DNA from: Lutibacter sp.
GTDB taxonomy: Bacteria > Bacteroidota > Bacteroidia > Flavobacteriales > Flavobacteriaceae
Direction of reading: 5' to 3'
NCBI GenBank assembly: GCA_030683995.1
Contig: JAUXPH010000026.1
Span: 1-64,000, forward strand
DNA: 64,000 nt
Below, piece after piece: positions 25,713 to 31,330 of this stretch. Both the position numbers and the translations under genes were made by a program. Every line of letters starts with the position of its first letter. Position 1 is the first letter of the stretch. The notes under the pieces are model-generated. The model had not been told where the DNA came from. It was given only the letters and a program-made list of their open reading frames with translations, and did no database searches.

Positions 25713-28562
25713 ATGCCAAAAAACTACAACATTAAATCGATTTTAATCATTGGATCAGGACCAATTATTATAGGCCAGGCTTGTGAATTTGATTATGCCG
25801 GCTCACAAGCAATCAGATCTTTAAAAGAAGAGGGGATTGAAGTGACGCTCATCAATTCAAATCCGGCGACAATTATGACGGATCCATCTTTGGCCGACAA
25901 TGTGTATTTGTTGCCGTTAACCACAAAATCGATTATTCAAATTTTGGAAAAACATCCAAATATTGATGCTGTTTTGCCAACAATGGGTGGACAAACAGCA
26001 TTGAATTTATGTATTGAGGCCGATGATAAAGGGATTTGGAAAGATTTTAATATTGATATTATTGGCGTTGATATTGCCGCCATTCATATTACTGAAGACC
26101 GCGAGCAATTTAGAAAGTTAATGAACAAAATTGGTATTGGACAAGCGCCGTCAACCATTGCGAATTCATTTTTGAAAGGGAAAGAGATCGCGCAGGAATA
26201 TGGTTTTCCGTTGGTTATTCGTCCTTCCTTTACCTTGGGCGGCTTTGGAGCTTCCATCGTTTATAAAAAAGAAGATTTTGATGAATTGTTAAGTCGCGGT
26301 TTAGAAGCTTCGCCCATTCACGAAGTGATTATTGACAAGGCATTGTTGGGCTGGAAAGAATTTGAATTGGAATTGTTGCGGGACAGAAATGACAATGTGG
26401 TAATTATTTGCGCCATCGAAAATATGGATCCGATGGGAATTCATACAGGAGATTCGATCACCGTTGCGCCTGCAATGACATTAAGCGATACCACATATCA
26501 AAAAATGCGAGATATGGCTATTTTGATGATGCGTTCCATTGGCGATTTTGCCGGTGGTTGTAACGTGCAATTTGCCGTAAGCCCGGATGATAAAGAAGAT
26601 ATTATTGCCATTGAAATTAATCCGCGTGTATCGCGTTCATCGGCCTTGGCTTCAAAAGCAACCGGATATCCGATTGCGAAAATTGCCGCAAAATTAGCTT
26701 TAGGTTATCATTTAGATGAACTGAGTAACCAAATTACCAAAACAACTTCGGCTTTGTTTGAGCCAACTTTGGATTATGTGATTGTAAAAATTCCGCGTTG
26801 GAATTTTGATAAGTTTGAAGGCGCTGACAGAACATTGGGCTTACAAATGAAATCGGTTGGAGAAGTGATGGGAATTGGACGTTCGTTTCAGGAAGCGCTT
26901 CATAAAGCAACGCAGTCACTTGAAATTAAACGCAACGGATTGGGCGCTGACGGAAAAGGAGAAACTGATTATGACACCATTATAGAGAAATTAACCTATG
27001 CGAGCTGGGATCGGGTTTTTATTATTTATGATGCGCTTCAAATAGGAATTCCGTTAAGCAGAATTCACGAAATTACCAAGATCGATATTTGGTTTTTAAA
27101 GCAATATGAGCAATTATTGGCATTGGACAGGGAAATTTCTACCCATAAACTGGAAACTTTATCCTACGAACTGCTTTTGGAAGCAAAGCAAAAAGGATTT
27201 GCCGACCGACAAATAGCGCACATGTTGGGCTGTTGGGAAAGTGAAGTCCATAACAAAAGACAAGAATTGGACATTAACAGGGTTTATAAATTGGTAGACA
27301 CTTGCGCCGCCGAATTTAATGCGCAAACACCTTATTATTACTCCACTTTCGAAAATAAAATGATTACCGAAAACGGAAGTTTTGCGGACAATGAAAGTGT
27401 GGTAACCGATAAGAAAAAAATAGTGGTTTTGGGTTCCGGCCCAAACAGAATCGGGCAGGGAATTGAATTCGATTATTGTTGTGTGCACGGAGTTTTGGCC
27501 GCAAAAGAATTGGGTTATGAAACCATTATGATTAACTGCAACCCGGAAACAGTTTCAACCGATTTTGACACGGCCGACAAATTGTATTTTGAACCGGTAT
27601 TTTGGGAGCATATTTACGACATCATCCAGCACGAAAAACCGGAAGGCGTTATTGTGCAGCTGGGCGGGCAAACTGCTTTAAAACTTGCGGAAAAATTAGA
27701 TAAATGGGGCGTTAAAATTATAGGGACCAGTTTTGACGCACTTGATTTGGCAGAAGACAGAAAGCGTTTTTCTGAATTGTTGATGGATTTGGAGATTCCT
27801 TTTCCGCAATATGGAACTGCCACGACGGCTGATGAAGCCGCTGCAATTGCAGATAGTTTAGATTTTCCAATATTGGTTCGCCCTTCTTATGTTTTGGGCG
27901 GTCAAGGAATGAAAATTGTAATCAATAAAGAAGAACTGGAAAAACACGTGGTTGATTTACTGCGTAAAATTCCAAACAATATGTTGCTGTTGGATCATTA
28001 TTTAGATGGTGCCATTGAAGCGGAAGCTGATGCAATTTGCGATGGGGAAGAAGTGTACATTATTGGAATTATGGAACATATTGAGCCTTGCGGGGTTCAT
28101 TCCGGTGACTCAAACGCTACCTTGCCGCCATTTAATTTGGGAGAATTTGTTTTGCAGCAAATTAAGGATCACACCCTAAAAATTGCCTTGGCTTTAAAAA
28201 CGGTTGGATTGATCAATATTCAGTTCGCCATTAAAGATGACATTGTTTATATTATTGAAGCGAATCCGAGAGCGTCCCGTACGGTGCCGTTTATTTCAAA
28301 AGCATATAAGGAGCCTTATGTAAACTACGCCACAAAAGTAATGTTGGGCGCCAATAAAGTGAAGGACTTTAAATTTAATCCGCAATTGGAAGGTTACGCC
28401 ATTAAACAACCGGTATTTTCGTTCAATAAATTTCCCAATGTTGACAAAAAATTAGGTCCGGAAATGAAATCGACCGGGGAAAGTATTTTGTTTATCGACA
28501 GTTTAAAAGACGACCAGTTTTACGAGCTGTATTCTCGAAGAAAGATGTATTTGAACAAATAA
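25713..28562 (+). CDS. carB: Carbamoyl-phosphate synthase large subunit, short form
   Basis: 949 residues with both homologous halves of CarB: SILIIGSGPIIIGQACEFDYAGSQA at the first ATP-grasp half and IVVLGSGPNRIGQGIEFDYCCVHG at the second, each with PTMGGQTALN or QLGGQTALKL and EINPR/EANPR metal sites. It makes carbamoyl phosphate for arginine and pyrimidines, with CarA (not in the window). It stops about where E. coli CarB (1073 residues) begins its C-terminal allosteric domain, so regulation by UMP, IMP or ornithine through that domain is not expected. Its last 12 codons recur at 29973-30011. Confidence 0.95.
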   Translation: MPKNYNIKSILIIGSGPIIIGQACEFDYAGSQAIRSLKEEGIEVTLINSNPATIMTDPSLADNVYLLPLTTKSIIQILEKHPNIDAVLPTMGGQTALNLCIEADDKGIWKDFNIDIIGVDIAAIHITEDREQFRKLMNKIGIGQAPSTIANSFLKGKEIAQEYGFPLVIRPSFTLGGFGASIVYKKEDFDELLSRGLEASPIHEVIIDKALLGWKEFELELLRDRNDNVVIICAIENMDPMGIHTGDSITVAPAMTLSDTTYQKMRDMAILMMRSIGDFAGGCNVQFAVSPDDKEDIIAIEINPRVSRSSALASKATGYPIAKIAAKLALGYHLDELSNQITKTTSALFEPTLDYVIVKIPRWNFDKFEGADRTLGLQMKSVGEVMGIGRSFQEALHKATQSLEIKRNGLGADGKGETDYDTIIEKLTYASWDRVFIIYDALQIGIPLSRIHEITKIDIWFLKQYEQLLALDREISTHKLETLSYELLLEAKQKGFADRQIAHMLGCWESEVHNKRQELDINRVYKLVDTCAAEFNAQTPYYYSTFENKMITENGSFADNESVVTDKKKIVVLGSGPNRIGQGIEFDYCCVHGVLAAKELGYETIMINCNPETVSTDFDTADKLYFEPVFWEHIYDIIQHEKPEGVIVQLGGQTALKLAEKLDKWGVKIIGTSFDALDLAEDRKRFSELLMDLEIPFPQYGTATTADEAAAIADSLDFPILVRPSYVLGGQGMKIVINKEELEKHVVDLLRKIPNNMLLLDHYLDGAIEAEADAICDGEEVYIIGIMEHIEPCGVHSGDSNATLPPFNLGEFVLQQIKDHTLKIALALKTVGLINIQFAIKDDIVYIIEANPRASRTVPFISKAYKEPYVNYATKVMLGANKVKDFKFNPQLEGYAIKQPVFSFNKFPNVDKKLGPEMKSTGESILFIDSLKDDQFYELYSRRKMYLNK

Positions 28563-28576
28563 AATTGGTTGAAAAA
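28525..28576 (+). repeat. carB 3' end, copy A of a diverged direct repeat
   Basis: The last 12 codons of carB (ELYSRRKMYLNK) plus the stop and about 13 bases beyond. A second copy lies at 29973-30024. The coding parts differ only at four synonymous positions (GAG/GAA, CTG/TTG, TCT/TCG, CGA/AGA), and there is one base of length difference after the stop. Confidence 0.85.
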
Positions 28577-28577
28577 T

Positions 28578-28627
28578 TGAAGTTTATTTTGTGAATCCTA
28601 TTTATTGACTTCACAAAATAAACTTCA
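28578..28627 (-). terminator. Perfect 18-base inverted repeat, probable terminator of the ATPase gene
   Basis: Arms TGAAGTTTATTTTGTGAA (28578-28595) and its exact complement (28610-28627) with a 14-base loop. On the minus strand the hairpin is followed by ATTTTTC. It lies 68 bases beyond the ATPase stop and starts two bases after copy A of the carB tail, at the junction of the proposed insert. It could be an element end instead. Confidence 0.5.
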
Positions 28628-28694
28628 GTATCCTCGAGTAGTTGAGAATGAAATGATGACTTATTAAGTTCTCGGTATTACTTGCTTCCTATTT

Positions 28695-29828
28695 CTAATT
28701 TTCTTTTTTAATGATTATTTTCTCAAAAAAGTTGTCAGGGCTAATGAGTTCTGTTTTTGCATAGGGATAACTATTGGTAAAAGCTTTGGTAATTTTGCCT
28801 TTGTGACCCCATTTCATTTCAAAGGCAGTGATTTGTTGTTCGTCTTGAACTATAAAGTCAACTTCTTGTTGCTGTAAGGTTCTCCAAAAATAGTAATTGT
28901 AGTCATTTTGCGCATATTCGTTGGCTTTTATAATTTCCATTACCACAAAATTTTCCCACAACACACCCACATCGTTACGCAATTCTACAGGTGAAAAATT
29001 ATCGATAATAGCATTGCGAATTCCCAAATCGTAAAAATAAATTTTACGCATTTTGGTAACCTCTTTTCTTTCATTGGTGGCATAACTTTTTAATCGGAAC
29101 AACACAAACGATTTTTCTAATAAATCAATGTAATTATCCACTGTTTCCGACTTTACTTTTAATTGTGTTGCCAGTTCGTTTAAGGATACTTCACAGCCAA
29201 TTTGATGCGCCAAGAGTTGCAATAATTTATTCAGCAAATCGGGTTTTCTAATGTCTTTCCAAGCCAAAACATCTTTATAGAGATATTGGTTGGCAATGCT
29301 TTTCAAGTATTTTTTGGCGTGAATTTTATTGTTTAAAACATCAGGATACATTCCGTAAACGAGATGCCAATTCATATTTTCAGTGAATTTCAGGAAACCG
29401 TTTTTGGTGTATATTTCTTCAATACTCAAAGGATATAAATGAAATACGAAATGTCTTCCTGTCAATGGTTCAAAAATTTCGTCGGCGATTTCTAAAGCCG
29501 AAGAACCACTGGCAATAAATTGAACATCTTTAAAATTATCAAAAAGCATTTTTAAACACAATCCGATGTTCTTTATTTGTTGGGCTTCATCTATAAGCAA
29601 AATTTTGTGGTCGCCAATAATTTGTCTCAATTTTTCTACTGTGGGTTCTTCAAATAATTTTTTTATGTGCGATTCTTCTCCATTTAAACTTAAATAAGAA
29701 TAGGACAATTGTTGTAGCATTTCTTTCAGTAAGGTTGATTTCCCTACTTGTCGCGCGCCAATAAGCACAAGAACCTTGTCCTTAAAAAGCCATTGTGTGA
29801 GCGTTTGTAATTGCAATCTTTTATACAT
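28695..29828 (-). CDS. AAA ATPase with DUF4143 domain
   Basis: 377 residues. The N-terminal AAA_14 ATPase domain has Walker A LIGARQVGKSTLL (about residues 22-34) and Walker B ILLIDEAQ near residue 78, then IASGSSALEI and LTGRHFVFHLYPLSIEE. The C-terminal DUF4143 domain includes TVDNYIDLLEKSFVLFRLKSY and a nuclease-like end (YYFWRTLQQQEVDFIV, then FEMKW). Such proteins are common solitary accessory genes with unknown role. It lies alone, opposite to carB, between two copies of the carB 3' end, which marks it as a probable insertion. Confidence 0.88.
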   Translation of the reverse strand: MYKRLQLQTLTQWLFKDKVLVLIGARQVGKSTLLKEMLQQLSYSYLSLNGEESHIKKLFEEPTVEKLRQIIGDHKILLIDEAQQIKNIGLCLKMLFDNFKDVQFIASGSSALEIADEIFEPLTGRHFVFHLYPLSIEEIYTKNGFLKFTENMNWHLVYGMYPDVLNNKIHAKKYLKSIANQYLYKDVLAWKDIRKPDLLNKLLQLLAHQIGCEVSLNELATQLKVKSETVDNYIDLLEKSFVLFRLKSYATNERKEVTKMRKIYFYDLGIRNAIIDNFSPVELRNDVGVLWENFVVMEIIKANEYAQNDYNYYFWRTLQQQEVDFIVQDEQQITAFEMKWGHKGKITKAFTNSYPYAKTELISPDNFFEKIIIKKEN

Positions 29829-29887
29829 AATGAAGCAAAGATATAAATATTTATCAAAAATCAGTAAAAAAAGTAACTATATTTCTT

Positions 29888-29925
29888 TTATACTGTTAAT
29901 ATTAATATTAAAATTTCCAGTATAA
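29888..29925. repeat. Inverted repeat upstream of the ATPase gene
   Basis: Arms TTATACTG and CAGTATAA with a 22-base AT loop containing TTAATATTAATATTAA. It may be part of the ATPase promoter or a control site. The rest of 29829-29972 is AT-rich without a gene. Confidence 0.35.
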
Positions 29926-29972
29926 TGGATATTTTAATAGTTTATTAAGATGCATTTGCTTGATGGACCTTA

Positions 29973-30024
29973 GAATTGTATTCGAGAAGAAAGATGTATT
30001 TGAACAAATAAATTGGTTTAAAAA
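29973..30024 (+). repeat. carB 3' end, copy B of a diverged direct repeat
   Basis: Reads ELYSRRKMYLNK-stop in frame, as the true carB end does, but with four synonymous differences. Homology to carB begins abruptly at the Glu codon. A good terminator follows at 30032, as expected after a real carB gene, so this copy is probably the original chromosomal tail. Confidence 0.85.
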
Positions 30025-30031
30025 ACATAAA

Positions 30032-30056
30032 AAGAGCGCTTAGCGCTCTTTTTTTA
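30032..30056 (+). terminator. Terminator left behind carB tail copy B
   Basis: Stem AAGAGCGCT/AGCGCTCTT with a one-base loop and a run of T. It lies 21 bases after the stop of carB tail copy B and now has no complete gene directly before it. Confidence 0.85.
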
Positions 30057-30116: not shown

Positions 30117-31019
30117 TTGAACAATATCAAAACTGAGTTTACTATTAAGGATCTCGAAAATTTTTCAGGCATCAAAGCGCATACCATACGAATTTGGGAA
30201 AAAAGGTATAATTTATTTCAACCTAAAAGAACAGATTCTAACATAAGATATTATGATATGAACAGTATGCTTAAGCTGCTAAACGTATCTTTACTTTACA
30301 ATAACGGATTAAAAATATCCAAAATTGCATCTTTATCCAATGATAAAATGGAATTAAGCGTAAAGGAACTGGTGTTTAAAGAAGGCTTTGAGAGTAAAGC
30401 GCTAAATTCATTTAAATTGGCAATGCTCAATTTTGATGAAGGCTTGTTCAATCAAACTTACAATGGCCTTATTTCGCAAATATCTTTTCGCACTATTTTT
30501 ACGGAGGTTTTCATTCCTTTTCTGAATGAAATTGGTATTTTGTGGCAAGTGCAGTCCATAACTCCGGCCCACGAACATTTTATCACAAATTTAATTAAAC
30601 AAAAGATTTTAATCAATATAGAAAAATTGCAATTTCTTCAGCCAAATAAAAATGGAAGAAAATTTGTGTTGTATTTGCCAATGAATGAAATTCACGAGCT
30701 CGGTTTGCTCTATTTGCATTTTGAATTGTTGTTTCACGGATATCATTCAATTTATCTGGGACAAAGCGTTCCTGTTGAAAATTTAAATGACCTGCAAAAA
30801 GTTTTTGATGATGTTTGCTTTTTAACCTATTTAACTGTTGAGCCTTCCAAAGACACTGTGGGAGAATATTTGCAGCAAGTTTATAGTGAAGTATTGAAGG
30901 ACACCAACGATACTTTATGGGTTCTGGGATCAAAATTGGCGCAATTTGATTCGGATTCTTTCAAAAATGATCAAATAAAAATATTTAAATCTCCGTTTGA
31001 GTTGTTAAATATTTTATAA
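30117..31019 (+). CDS. MerR-family regulator with B12-binding-type domain (CarH/LitR-like)
   Basis: 300 residues starting at a TTG. The N-terminal MerR helix-turn-helix reads TIKDLENFSGIKAHTIRIWEKRYNLFQPKR, with IRYYD and a second helix pair. A helical B12-binding-2-like region follows (about 90-175) and a Rossmann-like region (about 180-295). The last starts VLYLPMNEIHELGLLYLHFEL; the canonical cobalamin motif E/DxHxxG appears here as MNEIHELGLL. CarH/LitR proteins sense light through adenosylcobalamin and repress carotenoid and photolyase genes. This fits the carotenoid remnant and photolyase just downstream. Confidence 0.85.
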   Translation: MNNIKTEFTIKDLENFSGIKAHTIRIWEKRYNLFQPKRTDSNIRYYDMNSMLKLLNVSLLYNNGLKISKIASLSNDKMELSVKELVFKEGFESKALNSFKLAMLNFDEGLFNQTYNGLISQISFRTIFTEVFIPFLNEIGILWQVQSITPAHEHFITNLIKQKILINIEKLQFLQPNKNGRKFVLYLPMNEIHELGLLYLHFELLFHGYHSIYLGQSVPVENLNDLQKVFDDVCFLTYLTVEPSKDTVGEYLQQVYSEVLKDTNDTLWVLGSKLAQFDSDSFKNDQIKIFKSPFELLNIL

Positions 31020-31039: not shown

Positions 31040-31068
31040 TTGTTTAACTTATTTGTATATTTGTTACA
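31040..31068 (+). promoter_or_regulatory. Promoter of the crt remnant-photolyase unit with candidate operator
   Basis: TATATTTG at 31056-31063 lies 10 bases before the ATG at 31073, implying a very short leader. TTGTTTAACT (31040-31049) and TTGTTACA (31061-31068), 21 bases apart, repeat the motifs of the merR promoter. Confidence 0.5.
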
Positions 31069-31072
31069 CAAA

Positions 31073-31330
31073 ATGAAGAAAAAAATTATCATCATAGGCT
31101 CGGGTTTCTCATCTTTATCAGCTTCATGCTACTTGGCAAAAGCAGGTTATGATGTTTCAATTCTTGAGAAAAACAGCAGCGTTGGCGGGAGAGTACGACT
31201 GTTAAACATCAGATTGTTTACCATTCCTGTTGAAGATGCTGTTTATGCTTTTAATATGTTGTATCCGAGCATTCTTTTGATAGAATTTTTCAAAAAGAAA
31301 TTCAATAAAAAAACGGTTATTGTCGAATGA
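31073..31330 (+). pseudogene. Carotenoid operon remnant: crtI N-terminus fused to lycopene cyclase C-terminus
   Basis: An 86-codon frame. Residues 1-40 are the FAD-binding start of a phytoene desaturase: KKKIIIIGSGFSSLSASCYLAKAG then SILEKNSSVGGR. After that the sequence no longer fits CrtI. Residues about 44-76 (NIRLFTIPVEDAVYAF, then LIEFFKKKF) match the C-terminal end of heterodimer-type (CrtYcd) lycopene cyclases, where IPxED is characteristic. A full CrtI has about 490 residues. I read this as an in-frame deletion that removed most of crtI, the genes between and most of crtY. The stop overlaps the photolyase start (ATGA). No enzyme activity is expected. The CrtI part is secure; the cyclase part rests on memory of the family. 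Confidence 0.72.

Follow-up and report, generated by a model that had tools for sequence, protein, structure and literature searches.

Insertion of a gene together with a long duplication of its target has been described in bacteria. The mode named 'insertion with long target duplication' comes from two Helicobacter pylori genomes (Nobusato, Uchiyama, Ohashi and Kobayashi, 2000; PMC1643837, PMC3154945). In the parts of these accounts drawn on here, a gene that is present in one strain and absent in another is bracketed by the long target duplication, restriction-modification genes are frequently involved in H. pylori, and the arrangement is regarded as a mode of gene mobility. Here we describe a variant in Lutibacter sp., a member of Bacteroidota. 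In the window, by which we mean the whole 64,000-nt stretch analysed (positions 1 to 64,000 of contig JAUXPH010000026.1, assembly GCA_030683995.1), a single gene for an ATPase with AAA_14 and DUF4143 domains lies behind carB, between two copies of the carB 3' end. As in the published mode, the insert is absent from relatives, a long repeat flanks it, and it contains no transposase or integrase gene. We call it a variant because the insert belongs to the defence-candidate family PDC-S01 and not to the restriction-modification genes. Moreover, unlike the H. pylori cases, the Bacteroidota cases concern single-gene defence candidates and Fic genes, and the two copies of the duplicated stretch can be different alleles. 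The insertion of a single gene, shared between species and accompanied by a duplicated host-gene end, is well supported.

Other systems leave comparable products. In the systems treated in the cited part of PMC3240628, homology at one end suffices to add foreign DNA, and linear DNA can be circularized and then integrated by a single crossover. Such a crossover leaves the homologous stretch duplicated, as may have happened at carB. Homology-facilitated illegitimate recombination is, however, a laboratory phenomenon and is not established for this genus or these genes. In Arabidopsis, flanking direct repeats accompany 22 of 126 transposed genes vs. 6 of 102 unmoved ones, and orthologous empty sites often have the repeat as well (PMC2869330). 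Unlike the carB case, these are plant nuclear genes, and the cited portion of that paper draws no link to defence genes or allele differences. For the inserted family itself, S01 is an ATPase fused to a PD-(D/E)XK member and the fourth commonest defence across prokaryotes (PMC12988326), although most such single-gene candidates still await validation (PMC12988326, PMC13356809). These two accounts, in the portions used here, cover abundance, phylogeny and cross-domain transfer of PDC-S01 and describe no insertion mechanism.

In the window, carB encodes the large subunit of carbamoyl-phosphate synthase (949 aa; 25713..28562, plus strand; an ORF with Pfam and NCBIfam matches). Its final 12 codons and stop, with about 15 nt beyond, form tail copy A (28524..28577, plus strand). 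Copy B (29973..30025, plus strand) has the same 12 codons and stop (29973-30011), followed by about 15 nt of native post-stop DNA. Both copies were delimited from the sequence and a repeat search, and the extent of the homology past the stop was judged by eye against empty sites. The carB end at 28524-28562 reads GAG CTG TAT TCT CGA and copy B reads GAA TTG TAT TCG AGA, and both then continue with AGA AAG ATG TAT TTG AAC AAA TAA. All 12 residues are the same and the four differing codons are synonymous, just as the initial annotation had noticed from the letters; the repeat is longer than it claimed, since 28528-28576 and 29977-30025 align over 49 nt at 88% without gaps. A chance repeat is ruled out, because 35 of 39 bases match, vs. 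no more than 25 when the region was shuffled 200 times with its dinucleotides preserved. Exactly two tail copies are found in the 437,554 nt of the window genome that were checked as sequence. A whole-genome DNA search listed no third copy, which is a weak negative, as the known match between A and B is also unlisted there.

Between the two tails, just one ORF reaches 80 aa, the AAA_14/DUF4143 gene (28695..29828, minus strand; 377 aa; ORF, domain matches, PADLOC profile and AlphaFold model). Its frame is intact, in agreement with the one accessory ATPase gene annotated initially. The insert unit is about 1.4 kb, and no transposase or integrase was found among its ORFs. The 5' region of the gene (29829..29972, minus strand), delimited by repeat search and carrier comparison, has operator-like inverted repeats, is common to four insertions and ends at the copy B breakpoint. 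Immediately 3' of copy A, an inverted-repeat search found an 18-bp perfect inverted repeat forming a hairpin (28578..28627). After copy B stands an original-looking intrinsic terminator of carB (30029..30053, by motif search), which the initial annotation had also recognized, and several relatives with an empty site, such as G005 and G006, have the same or a similar hairpin 3' of their single tail.

The locus was compared in 15 genomes, i.e., the window genome (G000) and 14 others of the same genus. The gene is behind carB in four of them (G000, G001, G003 and G034), each with two tails. The hairpin after copy A is also present in G001, nearly perfect in G003 and absent from G034. The initial annotation would have been refuted by both tails in relatives lacking the ATPase, which was not observed; all 11 element-free genomes carry a single tail, though four of them (G002, G014, G023 and G031) are weaker empty sites with little or different DNA after carB. 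The long direct repeat that flanks the insert thus corresponds to one copy at the empty site. Close protein relatives (96-99%) are limited to the four carriers among 38 genus genomes searched at E 1e-40. Ten further genus genomes have protein relatives of just 44-48% identity, elsewhere in the genome. The right breakpoint looks identical by eye in all four carriers, so that one original insertion is likely. In G003, there is also a weak extra tail-like match within carB itself (L057:212). In viral contigs, one relative was found among 65 candidate stretches.

The insert is less diverged than the genes on either side of it, carB and a MerR/B12-binding regulator gene (30117..31019, plus strand; ORF and domain matches). 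Between G000 and G001, none of 106 fourfold sites differs in the DUF4143 gene, vs. 16% in carB and 12% in the MerR gene. Between G000 and G003, the corresponding values are 15%, 37% and 52%. Thus, the insert is younger than its flanks and moved between species at this site. The tract over which G000 and G001 diverge little begins at about 28554, within the last codons of copy A, and ends near 30400; it has 11 differences in 1847 nt as compared with 43 in the 1053 nt of carB to the left (Fisher p 8e-11). What the two genomes recently shared is therefore the insert, copy B and about 400 nt rightward, and the coding part of copy A is excluded.

The tails themselves have several histories. Copy B of both G000 and G001 is identical to the single tail of G005 (0 of 39 nt differing), which is their closest element-free relative among the genomes compared. 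Copy A is four sites off the G005 tail in G000, where the nearest tail is that of the less related G021 (one site), and three sites off in G001. Copy B of G034 is decayed: it has nonsynonymous changes and one or more in-frame stops. A freely decaying copy indeed changes residues, as had been argued initially. The two G003 copies, aligned over 37 nt, differ once and have variants in common. A single simple history does not fit all four carriers. What fits best is a first insertion followed by transfer via flanking recombination, with tail exchange on one or the other side. Local duplication alone at carB is disfavoured by the comparison with the G005 tail, and G003 remains compatible with it.

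The carB locus is not the only one of its kind. Profile or protein searches of the genus, the family and collections gave 131 DUF4143 loci; the named loci are the best 80 of 581, so that the sample leans to close relatives of the query. Direct repeats were found in 34 of 127 testable loci when flanks of 1.5 kb and E < 1e-4 were used. At 400 nt and E < 1e-5, they bracket 25 of 109 DUF4143 loci. Of 112 control ORFs, i.e., others of at least 280 aa from these loci, one is bracketed (Fisher p 7e-8), and it matches AAA_14 too. Inspection pruned the 25 loci to at most about 17 independent ones, by removal of three extra carB orthologs, many-copy repeats (L044, L045, L168) and terminator-like repeats (L050, L053); others, e.g., L096 and L174, were counted without a check for copies elsewhere. 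A second sample, from the phylum, has 7 of 28 loci flanked by repeats, the window among the seven. Like the duplication, the empty sites and the transfer between species at carB, the recurrence around the family is directly evident from the sequences, and the repeat-bracketed share of the sampled relatives suggests a shared way of moving.

The repeats of the family are host-gene 3' ends, 5' ends or intergenic DNA. The initial annotation had suggested a search for other DUF4143 genes flanked by gene-end duplications, and such genes were found: duplicated 3' ends include those of a methyladenine glycosylase gene (L042), a GNAT gene (L043), a TRCF helicase gene (L175), an MnmE-like GTPase gene (L074), a TonB receptor gene (L139) and, with a repeat of merely 22 nt, a gene of the phage-integrase family (L105). 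Duplicated gene starts include those of an ABC transporter gene (L073) and a DegT gene (L178). For L043, the empty site was sought by a GNAT search, which gave only homologs of at most 47% besides its own two copies. In 21 repeat pairs the lengths range from 22 to 331 nt. These pairs have no common core, the commonest 8-mer being present in three of them, as in shuffles. The copies of 12 non-carB coding cases differ by 32 synonymous and 44 nonsynonymous codon changes, so that synonymous-only differences are not supported as a signature of the family. The right copy begins no more than 40 nt from the stop codon in 11 of the 34 repeat-flanked loci. Where high-identity pairs stand in different surroundings, the likeness mostly reaches only from some 46-90 nt 5' of the start codon to around the stop codon; in other pairs, mostly orthologs, it extends further. 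Likeness confined to the 46-90 nt upstream and the gene indicates that the travelling unit is approximately a promoter plus a gene.

Gene 3' ends are well-known targets of integrative elements. Prophages and islands such as e14 in icd replace the gene end by a near-synonymous copy, and they use an integrase and a fixed att core. The carB insert could accordingly be the remnant of an integrative element for which the carB 3' end served as attachment site and whose integrase was lost or acted in trans. The restored gene 3' end and the direct repeats at both ends agree with such an origin, and one Fic gene (L187) has a duplicated tRNA-Val 3' end on both sides (806-833 and 2330-2357, the tRNA at 747-822), which is a classic attachment-site scar around a single gene. 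Unlike in e14-type elements, however, no integrase was found in the 1.4-kb carB insert, though recombinases elsewhere in the genome, which might act in trans, were not searched for. The 21 repeat pairs share no 8-mer beyond the shuffled expectation, several repeats are gene 5' ends or intergenic, and their lengths vary from 22 to 331 nt. We consider such a remnant improbable, and the analogy with attachment sites drawn in the initial annotation is weak for these reasons.

Other gene families were also surveyed. Fic genes are flanked by repeats in 5 of 28 loci, no different from DUF4143 (p 0.80), and SLFN/AlbA_2 genes in 1 of 25 (p 0.046). No flanking repeats were found in 29 loci of a beta-lactamase family or in 30 AbiEii loci. 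AbiEii is a two-gene system; single-gene flanks are therefore a poor test for it. The families differ in patchiness and are not a matched control. A DUF4143-specific mechanism is rejected by the Fic sample. This bears on another explanation, in which the ATPase-nuclease would mobilize its own gene, as a homing-type element consisting of one gene that is copied into empty carB tails after its product has cut them. Orphan AAA_14/DUF4143 (PDC-S01) genes would then be among the smallest self-spreading genes, consisting of a promoter and an ORF of about 1.2 kb in total, whose product inserts or homes its own gene with target duplications of 20-330 nt. The recent acquisition at the same site in different species within a short tract, the AAA+ ATPase with conserved PD-(D/E)XK-like residues and the family-wide enrichment of flanking repeats are compatible with homing. 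But the Fic genes show the same flanking repeats, with a worked case in the window genome, and to our knowledge the Fic family is not known for nuclease activity. The repeats of the family members also have no common sequence. Because Fic genes show the same scars, homing is less likely, and we regard it as very doubtful; the broader idea of self-spreading PDC-S01 genes is just as far-fetched. If it were true, defence and mobility would be one protein, in one of the commonest prokaryotic families of defence candidates.

The worked Fic case is on contig C54 of G000, where a Fic gene lies between two copies of the tail of another gene (66 nt, 91%). The 103 nt after tail A match DNA 3' of the single tail in G002 (86%); the first 41 nt or so of these also match G034, G003 and G023 and are a many-copy sequence, which leaves about 60 specific nt. 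The DNA after tail B matches G001, 31 nt at 97% past the tail and 98 nt at 92% including it, and no Fic gene is present at the corresponding G001 site in the stretch fetched. The same insertion is found in G005. Judging from these matches, two versions of a host-gene end stand side by side at C54. The Fic gene between the tails (L287 6344-8339, on C54) also adjoins an AbiEii-family gene, forming a small defence-like cluster by the duplication scar.

The initial annotation had proposed that a foreign segment arrived with its own carB tail and displaced the resident one. This proposal is partly supported. It fits copy B, which equals the G005 tail where copy A differs at four sites, and the Fic case of C54. 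It does not fit the tract shared by G000 and G001: the last codons of copy A differ between these genomes, so that at least one of them received copy B along with the insert and has a resident coding part of copy A.

A mechanism that would give such loci starts with an incoming fragment carrying the DUF4143/PDC-S01 gene and a short stretch homologous to the carB tail. The fragment, possibly acquired by DNA uptake, would join the chromosome via homology on one side only, either by homology-facilitated illegitimate recombination or by circularization and then a single crossover. The product would be carB, tail version A, the gene and tail version B, and since the carB tail stays complete, the insertion would be tolerated. 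Ordinary homologous recombination between flanking sequences would afterwards carry the insert from species to species at this site, mixing tail alleles and thus leaving silent-only differences. One-sided integration would yield tail-gene-tail products of variable length and without a core, with two alleles if donor and recipient differ, and the gene need not encode its own mobility.

The main competitor is an enzymatic insertion with a long and variable target-site duplication, in which staggered breaks tens to hundreds of nt apart would be followed by ligation and gap filling. The copies would be identical at first; then the orphan copy would decay and the gene-attached copy would change silently. 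The nearly identical copies of G003, the decayed copy B of G034, the proximity of the right copy to the stop codon in 11 of 34 loci, and the 32 synonymous and 44 nonsynonymous changes, which fit one constrained and one free copy, all favour it. At C54, however, the 103 nt after tail A correspond to downstream DNA of a relative (with about 60 nt not part of the many-copy sequence), and in G000 and G001 it is copy B that is unchanged relative to G005, whereas the constrained copy A carries the changes. We know of no enzyme that makes such long variable target duplications.

Several points weigh against integration through one-sided homology. The 32/44 codon split is about what is expected for plain target duplication with decay of the orphan copy, so that allele import is not supported as a general feature. 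In G000 and G001, the insert was accompanied by copy B and not by the coding part of copy A. The near-identical copies of G003 fit better with local duplication or gene conversion. In the match of C54 to G002, the first 41 nt or so are many-copy and only about 60 nt are specific. DprA is present, yet it is also present in most control genomes. Finally, one-sided homology leaves the first pairing of the gene with a carB tail unexplained. The many-copy part of the DNA after tail A at C54 makes one-sided homology slightly less probable and the enzymatic duplication slightly more so. We give roughly even credence to single-gene insertion with a long target duplication, joined through one-sided homology and followed by ordinary recombination between strains, and hold the enzymatic target duplication to be rather unlikely but deserving of attention.

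The inserted protein matches the PADLOC profile PDLC04789 from residues 1-371 of 377 to 1-373 of 375 (E 5e-151), and is thus PDC-S01 over its full length. The C-terminal domain retains the E-[IV]-D ... E-x-K residues, with M replacing K in one aligned row. This pattern is typical of PD-(D/E)XK nucleases. The AlphaFold model has a mean pLDDT of 90.2 and a pTM of 0.88. Its top PDB match is the archaeal AAA+ ATPase SSO1545, and PABY2304 is sixth, both with TM-scores of 0.51-0.56; Orc/Cdc6 and RuvB, at about 0.3-0.4, come in between, and two STAND proteins, Avs5 and Avs4, follow at ranks 34 and 42. The inserted gene probably acts in phage defence, PDC-S01 being a candidate family. Related DUF4143 genes in G003 and G001 (L051, L052) have one TAA stop each, so that pseudogenes of the family occur.

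Inverted repeats upstream of DUF4143 genes are far above background (p 6e-18; p 9e-19), and on the 3' side there is no excess over background (p 0.27). TAnnTTTG, which we take to be a promoter motif, adjoins the upstream repeats. Palindromes as the ends of the insert are rejected, since the excess is upstream only and beside this motif. The upstream inverted repeats of the family probably serve as operators. At another DUF4143 locus (L171), a 45-nt perfect direct repeat holds the gene's own upstream palindrome and is repeated directly after the stop (1372-1417 and 2589-2634, in gene orientation), which the operator reading leaves unexplained. A similar palindrome is located in both repeat copies of a Fic locus (L179).

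Some further observations concern the surroundings. A scan of 838 kb for repeat-flanked genes, biased because the G000 contigs were chosen for carrying DUF4143 or Fic genes, gave several hits that are many-copy repeats, and four genes tested from two G018 clusters are thioredoxin-like paralogs. Contigs C71 and C21 have many-copy intergenic repeats between accessory genes, and on C59 a DUF4143 gene lies between copies of a 116-nt repeat (for these contigs together, L279-L280 at 219-235 kb of C71 in G000, L285 and L286). The 949-aa product of carB covers 1-916 of the 1058 positions of the NCBIfam model and ends about 100 residues before the model does. Its relatives in the same genus are likewise short by frame length, and those of five more distant genomes of the order have 1072-1083 aa; the C-terminal domain seems to be absent in this lineage. 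Behind the MerR gene, a 96-aa ORF (31040-31330) first matches an NAD-binding domain family at its N-terminus and further on a lycopene cyclase family at its end, and is possibly a deletion remnant.

Single-gene defence candidates have a patchy distribution among prokaryotes, and there is no mobile-element gene in the carB insert. At carB, tail alleles were reshuffled between species and the protein remained unchanged. A long target duplication beside a gene is a measurable scar, by which insertion sites and empty sites can be found and donors sought. PDC-S01 and Fic genes are in this way linked to an insertion mode published for restriction-modification genes, so that the movement of lone defence genes becomes testable by comparing scars and empty sites.

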